In this document: positions 10,896 through 56,152 of the stretch, piece by piece
Layout of the letters: every line of letters begins with the position of its first letter
How positions within the stretch are numbered: the stretch's first letter is position 1
Assembly (NCBI RefSeq): GCF_004698125.1
Contig: NZ_ML214297.1
Coordinates: 310,001 to 374,000 of the forward strand
Reading direction: 5' to 3'
Origin: Halosimplex halophilum
GTDB lineage: Archaea; Halobacteriota; Halobacteria; Halobacteriales; Haloarculaceae
DNA: 64,000 nt
Program-made: the position numbers and the translations under genes
Notes under the pieces: generated by a model
Told to the model about the DNA's origin: nothing
The model's input: only the letters and a program-made list of their open reading frames with translations
Database searches by the model: none

Positions 10896-11900
10896 TTACG
10901 CGTTCGTCTCGTACAGCTCGCCGTCGTCGTACCGCGCCTCGAAGATGCGGTCGAACTGGTCGTCGGAGATGGACACGTCGATGGCGCCCATGTTCTCGTC
11001 CAGTTGCTCCACGGTTCGGGCGCCGACGATGGGCACGCAGTCGAACTCCCGCTGGTCCATCAGCCACCGGAGCGCGACCTGCGCGGGCGAGGCGTCGACC
11101 TCGTCGGCCACCTCGCGCACCGCGTCGAGGACGTGCCAGCCGCGCTCGGAGACGTACCAGTCCTCGAACATCGGGTCCAGATCCGCGCGGGTCCCCTCGT
11201 CGGCGTCGAGGTCGTAGGTGCCGTCGCCGACGCGCTCGTACTTGCCGGTGAGGAAGCCGCCGGCCAGCGGCGAGTACGGGCAGACCGCGAGGTTCTGGTC
11301 GGCGCAGACATCCAGGTACTCGGCCACGTCCTCGTAGTAGGCGGCGTGGAACAGGGGCTGGGTGACGGAGAAGGCCTCGTAGTTGTTCACGTCGGCCTGC
11401 CACAGGCCCTTGGTGAGCTTCCAGGCGTCACAGGTCGAGATGCCGACGTAGTGGACCTTCCCCTCCGAGATCAGGTCGTCGACGGCCCGCAAGGTCCGTT
11501 CGATGGGCGTCTCGTCGTCGAAGCGGTGCAGGTAGAGGATGTCCAGGTAGTCCGTGCCCAGTCGGTCGAGCGAGCCCTCGACCTCCGCCTTGACGTTCTT
11601 CTTCGAGAGGTTCTCCTGGAACCGCGAGACCGTGGACCAGAAGCACTTCGAGGCGACGACGTAGTCCTCGCGGTCGCGCTCGTCGAGCCACTCGCCGATC
11701 CAGCGCTCGGAGTCGCCGCCGCCGTAGCCGTTGGCGGTGTCGATGAAGTTCCCCCCGCGGTCGGCGTAGGCGTCGAGGAGTTCGTGGGCCTCCTCGCGGC
11801 CCGTCTCGACGACGCCGTCGTGTTCCTTGCCGAACCGCCACGTCCCGAAACAGACGGGCGAGACCTGCAGGCCGGTCTCCCCGAGTCGTCTGTACTCCAT
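10896..11900 (-). CDS. Aldo/keto reductase
   Basis: 334-residue NADPH-dependent oxidoreductase of the (beta/alpha)8 aldo/keto reductase superfamily, closest in pattern to the potassium-channel-beta/YghZ-like group. The catalytic tetrad is complete: D54 and Y59 in NFIDTANGYG, K85 in VASK, H125 in YLHRFD. The C-terminal cofactor segment IVGARTVEQLDENMGA is typical for NADP binding. Substrate is unknown. The gene is monocistronic and divergent from the TIGR00341 membrane protein, with about 155 nt between them. Confidence 0.94.
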   Translation of the reverse strand: MEYRRLGETGLQVSPVCFGTWRFGKEHDGVVETGREEAHELLDAYADRGGNFIDTANGYGGGDSERWIGEWLDERDREDYVVASKCFWSTVSRFQENLSKKNVKAEVEGSLDRLGTDYLDILYLHRFDDETPIERTLRAVDDLISEGKVHYVGISTCDAWKLTKGLWQADVNNYEAFSVTQPLFHAAYYEDVAEYLDVCADQNLAVCPYSPLAGGFLTGKYERVGDGTYDLDADEGTRADLDPMFEDWYVSERGWHVLDAVREVADEVDASPAQVALRWLMDQREFDCVPIVGARTVEQLDENMGAIDVSISDDQFDRIFEARYDDGELYETNA

Positions 11901-12056
11901 ACCGGCCGATAGGGCGCCGCTCGCTTAGTGGTTGGTTTCGCGGAACCGCGGGAGCCGTCGAACCCTGCCGGTGGCCGACAGGCGCCGAGAACCGGGCTAA
12001 AGCGGCCAGCACGCGCCGGGTCCGACCTTTTCCGGCGGCCGGCCCAACGGGGGGGT

Positions 12057-13427
12057 ATGCGGTTCCTGCAGCTGTCGGTGCCCCGGGAGCGCCGCGAGGC
12101 GGTGCTGGCGGTCCTCGACGGGCACGACCTGGGGTACACCGTCGCCGAGGGCGACGGGGCGAAGGAGGGCCACGCCCTCGTCTCCGTCGTCGTCCCCGCC
12201 GACGCTGTCGAGCGCGTCCTCGACGACCTCGGGGAGGCCGGCTACGACAGGGACACCTACACGGTCTCCATCGAGGCGGAGTTCGCGAGCTTCGAGGGCA
12301 TCGACGCGGTGCAGTCCCACTGGGCGGAGACGCCCAACCGGATCGCCCCGCGGACGCTCCGGTCGAAGGCCAGGGACATGCGACCGAACACGCGGTCGTA
12401 CGTGTGGCTGATGTTCCTGAGTACTGTCATCGCCACCGCGGGGCTGCTCATCGGCTCGCCGGCCGTCCTCGTCGGCTCGATGGTGCTGGCGCCGCTGGTG
12501 GCCCCGATGCTCGCCGCGAGCATCGGCGCGGTCCGCAACGACCGGGCGATGGTCGCCGACAGCCTCCGCCAGCAGGCGGTCGGCCTCGGCGTCGCCGTCC
12601 TCGGGGCGGTCGCCGCGAGCCTGCTGATCAGGTACCTTGCCATCGTCTCGGTGACGCTCGACGTGACGACGGTCGACCTGTTCGCGGTGCGGCTCTCGCC
12701 GGGCCTGCTGTCGGTGGTCGTCGGCCTCGCCGCCGGCGCGGCCGGCGCCTTCGGGCTGACGACGAAGGGCAACGTCAGCATCGTCGGCGTGATGGTCGCC
12801 GCCGCCCTGGTCCCGACGGCCGCGGTCGTGGGGATCGGCGTCGCATGGGGCGCCGCGAGCGTCGCCGTCGGCGCGCTCGTGTTGCTCGGGCTGACCATTG
12901 TCGCCGTCAACGTCGGCGGCTACCTCATGCTGCGCTACCTCGGCTACCACCCCGAGGAGGCCGGCGGACCGCTCCTCGACCCGGAGTCGGCCGCCGAGAC
13001 GGCCCGGTTCGCCGCGACCGTCGTCGCGGTCGTCGCCGTCGTCGCGGTCGTCCTCGCCGGCTCGGTCCAGCACGTCCGCTACGAGTACGCCGTCACGCAG
13101 GCGACCTCCGACGTGATCACCGACGACGAGTACGGCCAGCTGTCGCTCCGCGGCGTCACCGTCCAGTACGCCGGGATCAGCCCCGTCGAGACCCCCACGA
13201 CCGTCTCGGTCGGCCTCACCCGCGTCTCCGACGAGTCGTACCCGTCGCTCCCGAACGAACTCGCCCGGCAGATCTCGGACCGGACCGGCGAGGACGTGAC
13301 CGTCCTCGTCACCTACACCGACTACGAGCGGTCGAACGCCACCGGGTCCGCGTCGGGGACAGATCCGGCCGGAACCACGGCGGGAGCGGGTGCGACGAGC
13401 CTCGCCCGCCCGGCGGTCACCGGGTGA
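12057..13427 (+). CDS. TIGR00341/DUF389 family membrane protein
   Basis: 456 residues: an N-terminal soluble alpha/beta domain (1-110, MRFLQLSVP...GYTVAEG, ACT-like in layout), a core of about six membrane helices (120-370) with the family segment LMFLSTVIATAGLL-GSPAVLVGSMVLAPLVAPMLA and GNVSIVGVMVAAALVPTAAVVGIG, then a C-terminal extracytoplasmic/soluble region (375-456) with beta strands and a Thr/Gly/Ala-rich tail. The family is widespread in Halobacteria and its transport or signalling role is unproven. ATG 12057 matches the conserved first strand; the longer upstream reading is in non-coding-like sequence. Confidence 0.85.
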   Translation: MRFLQLSVPRERREAVLAVLDGHDLGYTVAEGDGAKEGHALVSVVVPADAVERVLDDLGEAGYDRDTYTVSIEAEFASFEGIDAVQSHWAETPNRIAPRTLRSKARDMRPNTRSYVWLMFLSTVIATAGLLIGSPAVLVGSMVLAPLVAPMLAASIGAVRNDRAMVADSLRQQAVGLGVAVLGAVAASLLIRYLAIVSVTLDVTTVDLFAVRLSPGLLSVVVGLAAGAAGAFGLTTKGNVSIVGVMVAAALVPTAAVVGIGVAWGAASVAVGALVLLGLTIVAVNVGGYLMLRYLGYHPEEAGGPLLDPESAAETARFAATVVAVVAVVAVVLAGSVQHVRYEYAVTQATSDVITDDEYGQLSLRGVTVQYAGISPVETPTTVSVGLTRVSDESYPSLPNELARQISDRTGEDVTVLVTYTDYERSNATGSASGTDPAGTTAGAGATSLARPAVTG

Positions 13428-52417: not shown

Positions 52418-52582
52418 TGCCCGCAGTATCCGAGCGCCGGGCTAAAGCGTTTCCAATCGGATACGTCGGATCGGCCGCCTCCGCCGCTCTCCGGCCCTGT
52501 GAGACGGGATGACAATGCAACCGTCGACTGTGAGACAGTGACATTCGGTGCAGCGGCGGGGCGGCCGCGGACCGGAGAAACC

Positions 52583-52589
52583 GTTAACT
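52583..52589 (+). promoter_or_regulatory. TATA-like box before the tRNA-binding protein
   Basis: GTTAACT, centred about 27 nt before the ATG at 52613; leaderless start predicted. Confidence 0.45.
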
Positions 52590-52612
52590 CGGTCTCGGGC
52601 GAGCGACGCGAC

Positions 52613-52933
52613 ATGGAGAGTCCGTTCGACATGACGATCCGGGTGGCGGAGGTCGAGCACGCCGAGCCGTTCCCGGAGGCGAACAAGCCCGAGATGGTCA
52701 AGCTCCGGCTCGACTTCGGCGACGAGACGCGCCAGTCGGCGGCCCAGCTGGGCTACCACCACGAGGCCGCGGACCTGGAGGGGCAGCAGGTGCTGGCGGC
52801 GACGGATCTGGGGTCGGTCCGCATCGCGGGGTTCAAATCGGAGGCGCTGACCGTCGGCGTCCCCGGGGACGACGGCAACCCCGTGCTCGTGACGCCCGAG
52901 GAGTCGGTACCCCTGGGCGGCGAGCTGTACTGA
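52613..52933 (+). CDS. tRNA-binding domain protein (CsaA/EMAPII-like)
   Basis: 106 residues forming an OB-fold. IRVAEVEHAEPFPEANKPEMVKLRLDFGDETRQSAAQLG...YHHEAADLEGQQVLAATDLGSVRIAGFKSEALTVGVP matches CsaA and the C-terminal domain of MetG or EMAPII: the GxxVxAxxHPxAxKLxKLxVD pattern and the RxIxGxxSEGM variant are visible. Likely a dimeric tRNA-binding protein. Upstream in-frame sequence is a shadow of ychF and is not coding. It precedes the Mre11-like gene by about 40 nt on the same strand with its own TATA-like TTTTTGTA between them. Confidence 0.85.
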   Translation: MESPFDMTIRVAEVEHAEPFPEANKPEMVKLRLDFGDETRQSAAQLGYHHEAADLEGQQVLAATDLGSVRIAGFKSEALTVGVPGDDGNPVLVTPEESVPLGGELY

Positions 52934-52940
52934 GGACAAC

Positions 52941-52947
52941 TTTTTGT
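52941..52947 (+). promoter_or_regulatory. TATA-like box of the Mre11-like gene
   Basis: TTTTTGT, 30 nt ahead of the ATG at 52974, so this gene likely has its own leaderless transcript despite the close upstream neighbour. Confidence 0.5.
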
Positions 52948-52973
52948 ACCGGTCCGGGGGTATCCGAGCACAC

Positions 52974-55361
52974 ATGGCGAAGCAACCGGAGTTGCGTCGG
53001 GCCGCCGACGGGGACCTCCGGGTGGAGGCGTCGTTCCCCAGCGGCCGGTACGCGTTCTCGCTCCGTCCGGAGGCCGGGGACCTGCTGACGGGACTCGGGT
53101 ACGGTCCCGGCGACGCCGTCCCCTGGTTCCTGTTCAAGGCGCTCGCGGTCGTCGGCGACGTGTGGCTGCCGAACACGGCCGACGACATCGCCGACGACCT
53201 CGCCGCCCCGGACTCGATCACCAGGATGGACGACGCGGAGGCCGCGGCCGCCGCCGACCACCTCCGGGACTGCCGGGTCGGCCAAGAGCGCCGCGAGCGG
53301 CTGGCGGACGTGGTCGCGCCGTCGGCCCTGCGCGACCACCTCTCGGTCGACGAACTGCCCTCGACCGAGGCGTTCGTCGCCGAAACGGCCTCGCTGGTCT
53401 CCGAAGCCGAGGGGAGCGACCCGGAACGAGTCGAAGGCGTGGAGCCCGACGACGTGGCCCACGAGGGCGGAGAGCCAGAGGATGTGGAACACGAGGGAGC
53501 GGAACCCGTACCGACAGGTGCCGAAACGGTGCGGTCCGCATCCGTCGGCCCGGCTTCGGACGCCTCGCTGTTGCACGTCGGGAAGGCGACGCTCGGCCGG
53601 CAGAACATGGGCCGGGCGGCCCGGACGGCCGACTATCTCGACGCGTTCGCACAGGCGATAGCCCTCGCGATCGAGCACGGCGTCGACGCCGTCGTCCAGA
53701 CGGGGCGGCTGTTCCAGAGCGGCTCGCCCGACCGCGAGACGGTCTCGGACCTGCAGACCGAACTCGCGCGACTCCGCGAGGCGGGGATTCCCTTCTACCT
53801 CGTCCCCGGCCCGAAGGAACTCGAAGTCCGGTCCACCGTGCTGCGGAGCCTGGCGACTAGCGACCTGCTCACGCCGATCGGGGGCGAGGCGGTCGCGGTC
53901 GGCGACGGCGTCACGCTGGTCGGCGTCGGCGCGGGTTCGGAGCCGGCCGAGGCCCTGTCGGCGGTCGGCGAACCGGCCGACGACGGGACACTGCTGGTCG
54001 CGTGCGGCGACCTCGATGTCGCCAGCGTCCGCGAGGATGCCGTCGAGGAACTCGCCGACGCGGTCCCGGGGCGACCGGCGGCGGTCCTCGCCGGCAAGCG
54101 GACCGACCCGGCCCGGGCGGAGCGGGCGGGCGTTCGACTCTCCGACCCGGGGAGCACCGAGCACGTCCTCTCGAAGTCGACGGTCGGCGAGGAGCCGCCC
54201 GCCCGCGGGGTCGACGAGTACGCGATGACGGACGGGACGCTGTCGGTGACGCGCCACGAACTGGACGCCCGACCGTTCAGCACCTTCGAGTTCGAGGTCA
54301 CCGGGTCGACGACGCTGGACTCGATCGAGGAGCGGATTGCCGGACACGACCTGGAAGACCGGGCCGTACTGGCGGTGTTAGAGGGGTCCGGTCCCGGTGC
54401 CGCCCAGCCGTCCAGGGAGGCCGTCCAGTCGCTGCTCGCGGAGCGCGCGTTCTGCGCGCGCGTCTACGACGAGCGGTCGGACTCCGGCGACAGCGACGAG
54501 GACCGCGAACGACCCGACGGAGCCGAGGAACTCGACGCCGACAGCGCCGAGCGCCTCCTCCGGGACCTCGCGGACACCGTCGCGGAGCTGGAGGGGATGG
54601 AGTCCGCGGACGTGTCGGGGCTGGAGACGGCGGCGCTGGCGGACAGTTACGCCGTCCTCTCGAAGGCGAAGTCGGAGATCGAGGAGCTGCGGACCGCCGC
54701 CCGGGACGAACTGACCTCCCGCGTCGAACCCGACGAGACGGTCGCGGGTTCGGTCGGGTCGGTCACCGGGGCGAAGCGCCGGCGCCGGTCGCTGCGGGAC
54801 GACGAGACCGTCGCGGCGGCGCTCCGGGAACACGGCGTCCCGGTCGAGCGCGTCACGACCGAGACCGTCGATACGGAGAAGGTGGAGGCGGTGCTCGACG
54901 AGCGGGACAGCGTCGCCGAGGACGAACTCTTCGAGGTCTCCGAGAGCGAGTACGTCCGCCGGCGGGACCTAGACCTGGACCTGGAGGGCGGTGTCGAACT
55001 CGGGTCGACCGACGGACCCGGATCGACGGACGAACTCGGATCGACGGAGGCGGACGAGGAGTCCGAGAGCGAGGAGACGGACGGCGAGCGAGGGACATCG
55101 GAGAGCCGACCCGGCCGGGAGTCACACAAGGTGTATCTGGGCGACGGCGCGCCGATCGACGGCTGGACGCCGGTCGAGCGATCCGTGGTCGAGGCGGAGA
55201 TCGTCCCGCTCGTGCGGGCACACGACGGCGCGGACGAGGGGGAGGCGATCGCCGTCAACTTCGGCAGCGGCGTCTCGGTCAGCGGCTGGAGCCAGGTCGA
55301 CGCGCGGGTCGTGAGAGAGAAGATCGTCCCGCTGGTGGCGGACCACCGCGTCCCCGAGTAG
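52974..55361 (+). CDS. Mre11-like protein with all metal-site motifs lost (795 aa)
   Basis: 795 residues. Residues 1-125 form an unrecognised N-terminal domain (FPSGRYAFSLRPEAGDLL...VVGDVWLPNTADDIADDL), then an acidic linker (140-195), then a phosphoesterase-like core (198-430) that aligns with Mre11 by context: LLHVGKATLG (201-208) where Mre11 has HxxDTHLG, VVQTGRLF (about 243) for GDLF, LVPGPKE (277-282) for GNHD, and LAGKRTDP for the GHxH motif. Downstream, PGSTEHVL and RHELDARPF match the Mre11 capping region. The rest is a helical section (430-640) and a C-terminal repeated part (690-795). All ligands of the two metals appear replaced, so nuclease activity is unlikely. ATG 52974 follows a TATA-like box at 30 nt. 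Confidence 0.75.
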   Translation: MAKQPELRRAADGDLRVEASFPSGRYAFSLRPEAGDLLTGLGYGPGDAVPWFLFKALAVVGDVWLPNTADDIADDLAAPDSITRMDDAEAAAAADHLRDCRVGQERRERLADVVAPSALRDHLSVDELPSTEAFVAETASLVSEAEGSDPERVEGVEPDDVAHEGGEPEDVEHEGAEPVPTGAETVRSASVGPASDASLLHVGKATLGRQNMGRAARTADYLDAFAQAIALAIEHGVDAVVQTGRLFQSGSPDRETVSDLQTELARLREAGIPFYLVPGPKELEVRSTVLRSLATSDLLTPIGGEAVAVGDGVTLVGVGAGSEPAEALSAVGEPADDGTLLVACGDLDVASVREDAVEELADAVPGRPAAVLAGKRTDPARAERAGVRLSDPGSTEHVLSKSTVGEEPPARGVDEYAMTDGTLSVTRHELDARPFSTFEFEVTGSTTLDSIEERIAGHDLEDRAVLAVLEGSGPGAAQPSREAVQSLLAERAFCARVYDERSDSGDSDEDRERPDGAEELDADSAERLLRDLADTVAELEGMESADVSGLETAALADSYAVLSKAKSEIEELRTAARDELTSRVEPDETVAGSVGSVTGAKRRRRSLRDDETVAAALREHGVPVERVTTETVDTEKVEAVLDERDSVAEDELFEVSESEYVRRRDLDLDLEGGVELGSTDGPGSTDELGSTEADEESESEETDGERGTSESRPGRESHKVYLGDGAPIDGWTPVERSVVEAEIVPLVRAHDGADEGEAIAVNFGSGVSVSGWSQVDARVVREKIVPLVADHRVPE

Positions 55362-55384
55362 GACACCGGGGAGGCCGAACCGAC

Positions 55385-56152
55385 TCAGAGCCCGGTGGGG
55401 TGGTCGATATAGGTCGTCTCCAGGCCCCAGTCGTCGGCCAGCCCCTGCAACTGCTGGACGCCGAACGTCTCGGTGGCGTAGTGGCCGCCGAGGAAGACGT
55501 TGATCCCGGCGTCGCGGGCCTGGTGGTACACCTTCTGTTTCCCTTCCCCCGTGACGAACGCGTCGACGCCGGCGTCGACGGCTTCTTCCAGCCAGTCGGC
55601 GCCGCCGCCGGTGACGACGGCCACGTCCTCGATCTCTCCGGGACCGAAGTCGAAGTACTGGACGCCCTCGCCGCCGGTGTCCAGTTCCGATTCGAGCAAC
55701 GTTGCCAGTTCGTCGGGCGAGAACGGGTCGGCGGCCCGGCCGCGCTGGCCGATAGTGACGGGGCCGACCTCGCCGAACGGCTCGCGGGCTTCGAGGTCGA
55801 GCAGGTCCGCGACGCCGGCCGCGTTGCCGAGTTCGTCGTGGCCGTCCAGCGGGAGGTGCATCGCGTACAGCGCCAGGTCGCCCTCGATCAGCGGGGCGAT
55901 CCGGTCGTAGTCGAGGCCGGTGACGCGGTCGATGCCGCCCCAGGAGACCCCGTGGTGGACGACCAGGAGATCCGCCCCGCGGTCGAGCGCCGCGTCGATG
56001 GTCGCGCCCGCGGCGTCGACGGCGAAGGCGACCGTCTCCACGTCGGCCTCGTCGGGGCCGACCTGCAGGCCGTTGGCGCTGGCGTCCACGTCGGCGTAGT
56101 CGCCCGGGGAGAGGCGCTCGTCGTAGCGCTCGCAGACTGTCGAGAGGTCCAT
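55385..56152 (-). CDS. Nif3-like dinuclear metal-centre protein (DUF34)
   Basis: 255-residue member of the Nif3/NIF3L1 family, toroidal hexamer with a dimetal site. The ligand groups are LLVVHHGVSWGG (HH), the YAMHLPLDGHDELGN segment with H-x2-LD, and LGGHYATETFG (H, E) at the C terminus; TGEGKQKVYH is the second half-domain loop. The family's biochemical role is unsettled. Start ATG 56152 matches the canonical family beginning. It is convergent with the Mre11-like gene. Confidence 0.92.
   Translation of the reverse strand: MDLSTVCERYDERLSPGDYADVDASANGLQVGPDEADVETVAFAVDAAGATIDAALDRGADLLVVHHGVSWGGIDRVTGLDYDRIAPLIEGDLALYAMHLPLDGHDELGNAAGVADLLDLEAREPFGEVGPVTIGQRGRAADPFSPDELATLLESELDTGGEGVQYFDFGPGEIEDVAVVTGGGADWLEEAVDAGVDAFVTGEGKQKVYHQARDAGINVFLGGHYATETFGVQQLQGLADDWGLETTYIDHPTGL

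Follow-up and report, generated by a model that had tools for sequence, protein, structure and literature searches.

The protein encoded at positions 52974-55361 of the 64,000-nucleotide stretch of Halosimplex halophilum DNA that we analysed (contig NZ_ML214297.1, positions 310,001 to 374,000; hereafter the window) is an Mre11 pseudo-nuclease that has lost its metal site and kept both the nuclease-like core and the capping domain, and we regard this identification as solid. The family of which it is a member is small and scattered; judged from sequence, it is restricted to haloarchaea, and it is new here as a dead family within the known Mre11 fold family; no paper on it was found in the searched literature, such an absence being weak evidence. 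The protein is laid out as an N-terminal domain, the dead Mre11 core, the cap, a DUF2800-C-like module and a tandem-repeat C-terminal domain, and its start, MAKQPEL, corresponds to MAK[PQ]P in its relatives. Its features are the following.

52974..55361, plus strand: coding sequence of the dead Mre11, 795 amino acids plus stop (list of open reading frames)
52974..53393, plus strand: N-terminal domain, residues 1-140, haloarchaeal alpha/beta (AlphaFold2, genome survey)
53562..54173, plus strand: Mre11 nuclease-like core, residues 197-400, metal site lost (Mre11_Halo, fold, motif table)
53583..53591, plus strand: remnant of motif I, K204-A-T206, canonical D-T-H (motif alignment)
53706..53708, plus strand: remnant of motif II, R245, canonical D of GDLF (motif alignment)
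53811..53816, plus strand: remnant of motif III, P280-K281, canonical N-H (motif alignment)
54003..54005, plus strand: remnant of motif IV, C344, canonical H (motif alignment)
54096..54104, plus strand: remnant of motif V, K375-R-T377, canonical GHxH, GDxH in haloarchaea (motif alignment)
54174..54488, plus strand: Mre11 capping domain, residues 401-505, retained (fold alignment to residue 502; dN/dS 0.34)
54528..55079, plus strand: middle module, residues 519-702, at the position of the Rad50-binding helices of Mre11 (phrog_35116 and DUF2800-type matches)
55119..55352, plus strand: C-terminal domain, residues 716-793, two tandem copies of a unit of about 35 residues (repeat test)

The NCBIfam model Mre11_Halo (NF041030) matched residues 199-509 with an E-value of 1.3e-28 and 100.3 bits, i.e. 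below its curated cut-off of 550 bits, and a Pfam search of the protein returned no match. In an AlphaFold2 model based on an alignment of eight sequences, the confidence was about 90 for residues 1-140 and about 85 for residues 197-500; past residue 503 the pLDDT of the full-length model was mostly below 50, so that it is unusable for the middle and C-terminal regions. The top fold matches of the model were all Mre11 or SbcD (Foldseek E 7e-13), and residues 197-502, comprising core and cap, aligned over 277 residues with 5dny_C, the Methanocaldococcus jannaschii Mre11 from the ATPgammaS-Mre11/Rad50-DNA complex (VIA Z 24.5).

The metal site was compared with that of 28 catalytic haloarchaeal Mre11 or Mre11-like proteins, in which the motifs read HxxDTHxG, H[AT]GDLF, VGNH[ED], xxH and GDxH; the corresponding stretches of the window protein are HVGKATLG, QTGRLF, PGPKE, VACGDL and AGKRTDP. 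All eight metal-ligand positions are replaced (D by K204, H by T206, D by R245, N by P280, H by K281 and H by C344, with K375 and T377 at the other two), and the rest of the chain contains no GNH[DE], GHxH or DxH. By contrast with this loss, the hallmarks of the cap are preserved: PGSTE at residues 392-396, which fits the canonical [CPA]GSTER motif, and RHELDARPF at residues 427-435. A reading made earlier from the sequence alone had described an Mre11 frame stripped of every metal ligand with the cap hallmarks kept; the motifs it quoted are real, and sequence, fold and selection (below) support its pseudo-nuclease, with neither a different fold nor an intact metal site elsewhere in the chain. 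From its motifs, the protein would be expected to lack catalysis in vitro. In total, it resembles the haloarchaeal Mre11 of NF041030 and Mre11/SbcD in the fold of core and cap, in the [CP]GST motif and in cap order, but differs from them in having no metal ligands and no Rad50-binding-type region, in reaching 100 of 550 bits, in carrying extra N-terminal, middle and C-terminal domains, and in the location of its gene, which is not beside rad50. A catalytic Mre11 (HTGDTHLG, GDLF, GNHE, GDNHH) followed by Rad50 is encoded in the same genome, away from the window gene; the window protein is only about 29% identical to this resident Mre11.

Full-length relatives are encoded in Halosimplex pelagicum R2 (G079; 74% identity) and in genome G165 (56% identity). 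Comparison of the window copy with that of H. pelagicum gave an overall dN/dS of 0.40 by NG86 (YN00 failed for several domains, and dS is uncertain owing to GC bias); the true Mre11 proteins of these two genomes gave 0.14. By part, the values were 0.30 for the N-terminal domain, 0.41 for the core, 0.34 for the cap, 0.36 for the middle module and 0.33 for the C-terminal domain; i.e. purifying selection on core and cap is as strong as on the other domains, and the linkers evolve faster than the domains. We conclude that the gene is under purifying selection: it is maintained, yet evolves faster than the repair Mre11.

The sequence-only reading had found both flanks of the Mre11 part unrecognisable, which holds for residues 1-140 and in part fails for the rest, where recurring haloarchaeal and viral modules are present. 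Folded alone, the N-terminal domain gave a pLDDT of 88.5. With this domain as query, fold searches of the PDB returned no match (Foldseek E 0.85 at best, highest Z 2.8), and a profile run against PDB sequences gave matches at chance level only; an AbrB-type resemblance noted by eye was unsupported by the fold search. The domain occurs stand-alone and in fusions with HhH repeats in 28 of 342 Halobacteriales genomes. Searches of Pfam, NCBIfam and PADLOC returned no family for this domain or for the C-terminal domain of the window protein.

Residues 519-702 matched the C-terminal part of phrog_35116 (E 4e-14), and this middle module contains a basic patch, RRRRSLRDDE. The match to phrog_69 had an E-value of 0.04 in the window protein and 0.003 in the relative at L068; the latter also gave a weak match (E 0.004) to DUF2800, to the C-terminal part of a phage exonuclease. 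Only the C-terminal module matches, and a match to the whole DUF2800 family including the nuclease part was not obtained: the window protein shares this module with phrog_35116 and, on weak matches, with DUF2800-type phage exonucleases, but it lacks the exonuclease part and has the module joined to the dead Mre11. The phrog_35116 protein is common on haloarchaeal plasmids; proteins of this kind (about 330 amino acids with a DUF2800-like C-terminal module) recur on both plasmids and chromosomes, e.g. at L014:1483-2682 and L033:3560-4534. The repeated C-terminal part noticed earlier is a genuine two-copy tandem repeat, as none of 2000 shuffles scored as well. Its unit is also present behind DUF7389 in other proteins, and the domain ends a DinG/XPD-like helicase on a Haloferax larsenii plasmid (L032:5950-9234; typeIV_DinG model, E 2.5e-77).

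A family search covering 342 Halobacteriales identified eight metal-site-dead members from four haloarchaeal families, namely those of the window, H. pelagicum, G165, G291, G034, G339, G197 and G261. A contig scan with the window protein as a single query found no relative, and the same scan with an alignment found H. pelagicum as the sole match. Several or all ligands are lost in each member and the replacements differ between branches; in G197/G261 and G034, some ligands survive (D and H, or D and N). The proteins of the window, H. pelagicum and G165 share the architecture N-terminal domain, dead Mre11, middle module and C-terminal domain. The N-terminal domain is followed by dead Mre11 and HhH in G291, and in G197 and G261 by a dead core without recognisable cap and the middle module. 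In G034, dead Mre11 is joined to a domain that it has in common with ShosT, and in G339 it lies between pentapeptide repeats and an HhH region followed by a phosphoribosyltransferase (PRTase). In G122, the N-terminal domain and the middle module occur together without any Mre11.

In the tree, the dead proteins group on one side of a branch (support 91/94), and the catalytic chromosomal and plasmid Mre11s lie on the other. The dead members may thus share one origin; because several branches, including those of G339 and G291, are long, a single origin falls short of proof. Searches of viral contigs and phage records found no relative, so that the idea of the protein as a whole having come from a virus is not supported. 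Catalytic Mre11-like genes are also present on plasmids, on pHSAL2 of H. salinarum (L034:8034-10716) and on a Halocatena plasmid (L035:7998-15556); one of the two is paired with an AAA ATPase, and the other shares an operon with genes for an AAA ATPase, for NurA and for a further ATP-binding protein.

Three relatives are connected to systems like ShosTA, which consists of a PRTase toxin (ShosT) and a DprA-like antitoxin (ShosA), the toxin being fused to, near, or sharing a domain with the dead Mre11. A DprA-PRTase pair protects against phages (Rousset et al., PMC9122126). An operon encoding both components was found for the relatives in G339, G291 and G034. In G339 (L125:4402-9794), dead Mre11 lies within a protein of 1476 amino acids that has a ShosT-like PRTase at its end, and the next gene, a ShosA-like dprA, overlaps the gene for this protein by 4 bases. 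This fusion is an unusual giant ShosTA variant, and a NERD/UvrD-type helicase gene follows. In G291 (L155:8569-15001 and L067:1992-9700), ShosT/ShosA, McrC, an McrB-like AAA ATPase and the protein with N-terminal domain, dead Mre11 and HhH lie in a cluster of about 11 kb, with the dead Mre11 about 4.5 kb from the ShosTA pair and McrBC between them; the cluster is apparently a defence island. In G034, the C-terminal 187 amino acids of the dead Mre11 protein are 53% identical to the N terminus of the G291 ShosT. Contig C30 of G034 ends just after the dead-Mre11 gene, and ShosT with HhH repeats plus ShosA are encoded on a separate short contig (C29, L153:162-3070); the two are possibly linked, the contigs being too short to prove adjacency.

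Of 224 Halobacteriales, only 4 were found to encode full-length DprA (threshold E <= 1e-27), against 3 of the 8 dead-Mre11 genomes (p 5e-4 by Fisher's test, in a small and partly overlapping sample). No ShosA-grade DprA was detected in the window genome, G079, G165, G197 or G261, the window locus encodes no PRTase or DprA, and PADLOC has no model that matches the window protein, which unlike ShosT has no PRTase. The ShosTA link is therefore shown for relatives and not for the window copy. Two further observations concern these systems and genomes. In G127 (L159:1072-4920), an HhH protein of 926 amino acids with a PRTase-like end and no Mre11 is encoded beside dprA, and haloarchaeal ShosT proteins seem often to be enlarged by DNA-binding modules. 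In G291, the gene for an Mre11-like protein that also carries pentapeptide repeats and a membrane end (L067:12762-16085, minus strand) adjoins a gene at 11197-12705, whose product has a Bles03 domain and degenerate motifs resembling those of phosphoesterases.

The setting of the window gene is one of housekeeping genes. It is flanked by a gene for a tRNA-binding-domain protein (52613-52933) and by Nif3 (55385-56152, minus strand), and YchF and eIF5A are encoded nearby. Two of eight Halosimplex genomes have the dead-Mre11 gene. The genes upstream of these two copies are unlike, and a conserved operon partner was rejected on this ground; in H. pelagicum a lipoprotein gene precedes the intact gene. 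In two other Halosimplex genomes (G032, G056), the last ~35 residues alone are left at the same site, right behind that lipoprotein gene, which indicates that an older resident gene was deleted there. The interval between Nif3 and YchF (52418-55384 in the window; L073 and L120-L124) varies among Halosimplex genomes, holding an RtcB-like gene, a membrane-protein cluster, the lipoprotein gene or the dead-Mre11 relic, and resembles a small hotspot of insertion and deletion amid core genes.

The cap is a point of contact with Rad50 in structures of the Mre11-Rad50 complex. We made a profile of the region behind the cap, residues 304-363 of the resident Mre11, where the Rad50-binding helices sit and which from this position would be the Rad50-binding part. 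The profile found six of six control catalytic proteins, among them divergent ones from plasmids (E 9e-28 to 4e-6), but detected none of the dead members tested (best E 0.18); in these, the cap is followed by a DUF2800-type module, HhH repeats or the PRTase toxin. The cap itself is still present in the window protein despite the missing region, and the loci of dead members showed no Rad50-like gene. The earlier suggestion of a scaffold or competitor for a Rad50-like protein, in which the cap would bind Rad50 and block or redirect Mre11-Rad50, draws on the preserved cap and on the real Mre11-Rad50 pair of the same genome; however, because the post-cap region is absent in the dead members and no Rad50-like neighbour is present, a Rad50-centred role is unlikely, and we give this one little credence. 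We give slightly less to a heterodimer with the catalytic Mre11 formed through the dimer face of the nuclease core, i.e. a half-active complex carrying extra modules: the core fold is retained and a catalytic partner is available in the genome, but the identity of only about 29% between the two argues against pairing, and the ShosT-fused members would need to pair likewise.

The dead core could also be a protein-protein platform in another DNA enzyme and not a DNA reader, which we consider a minor but real possibility. There is direct precedent in the eukaryotic polymerase B-subunits, which have lost every catalytic residue of the archaeal DP1 exonuclease (PMC4996933). These subunits are a non-catalytic part of a DNA machine and have, like the window protein, a calcineurin-like/Mre11-like fold without catalytic residues, but they contain an OB-domain insert and have a polymerase partner, whereas the window family has the cap and DUF2800-C-like or HhH modules. 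Such a structural subunit would suit the varied fusions and the purifying selection on a protein that has no active-site residues left; a conserved neighbour or partner gene is lacking, the upstream genes differing between the Halosimplex copies, and presence in two of eight Halosimplex genomes is unlike that of a core subunit. Finally, a lost active site, sporadic occurrence and the ~35-residue C-terminal relics in two genomes are features of a decaying gene with no current function. This we hold to be very improbable, as the frame is open over about 740-795 codons in three lineages and dN/dS is 0.3-0.4 in every folded domain, with faster linkers, as in a working protein.

The DNA-end sensor that the sequence-only reading offered as its other possibility may be closer to the mark than a Rad50 partner, since it agrees better with the DNA-type modules that have been added and with the defence genes near some relatives. 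The reading that we prefer, tentatively, is that the dead Mre11 serves genome-conflict proteins as a module for recognising DNA, independent of Rad50 and without nuclease action. The metal site would have been rebuilt with non-ligand, partly basic residues (K204, R245, K281 and K375-R376), and the Rad50-binding tail swapped for other DNA-type modules. With no need of Rad50 and no cut made, the Mre11 surface would then bind DNA at an end or at some structure, and the basic side chains at the former metal places would perhaps hold a phosphate. Together with the N-terminal domain, the module joined to it (DUF2800-C-like, HhH or the PRTase toxin) might turn binding into partner recruitment or signalling, most probably when the cell responds to DNA that is foreign or damaged. 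The analysis shows the homology, the fold, the loss of ligands and of the Rad50-binding-type region, purifying selection and the ties of some relatives to ShosTA-like systems; DNA binding, lack of catalysis in vitro, a partner and a defence role for the window copy are inferred from these.

K204 and K281 are invariant in the three orthologues, position 245 is R, R or H, and over about 205 residues the core contains 30 D and E in the window protein versus 42 in the resident Mre11. A metal-free phosphate-binding pocket may exist, and the basic pattern is confined to the branch of the window, H. pelagicum and G165. A bolder form of the preferred reading, in which the lysines and arginines of this branch replace both metals to make a metal-free reader of DNA ends, with various outputs including a ShosT-type toxin and with broken or linear invading DNA as the trigger of the response, is in our estimate unlikely.

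Studies of what Mre11 does apart from its nuclease usually rely on engineered mutants. In the present family, nature has removed the cutting site as well as the Rad50-binding region and kept core and cap, so that the action of the bare Mre11 fold itself becomes testable. Moreover, the N-terminal domain, confidently modelled and without a match in the PDB, is a structural target. Finally, the link of some members to ShosTA-like systems hints at a way in which these systems could detect DNA in archaea.
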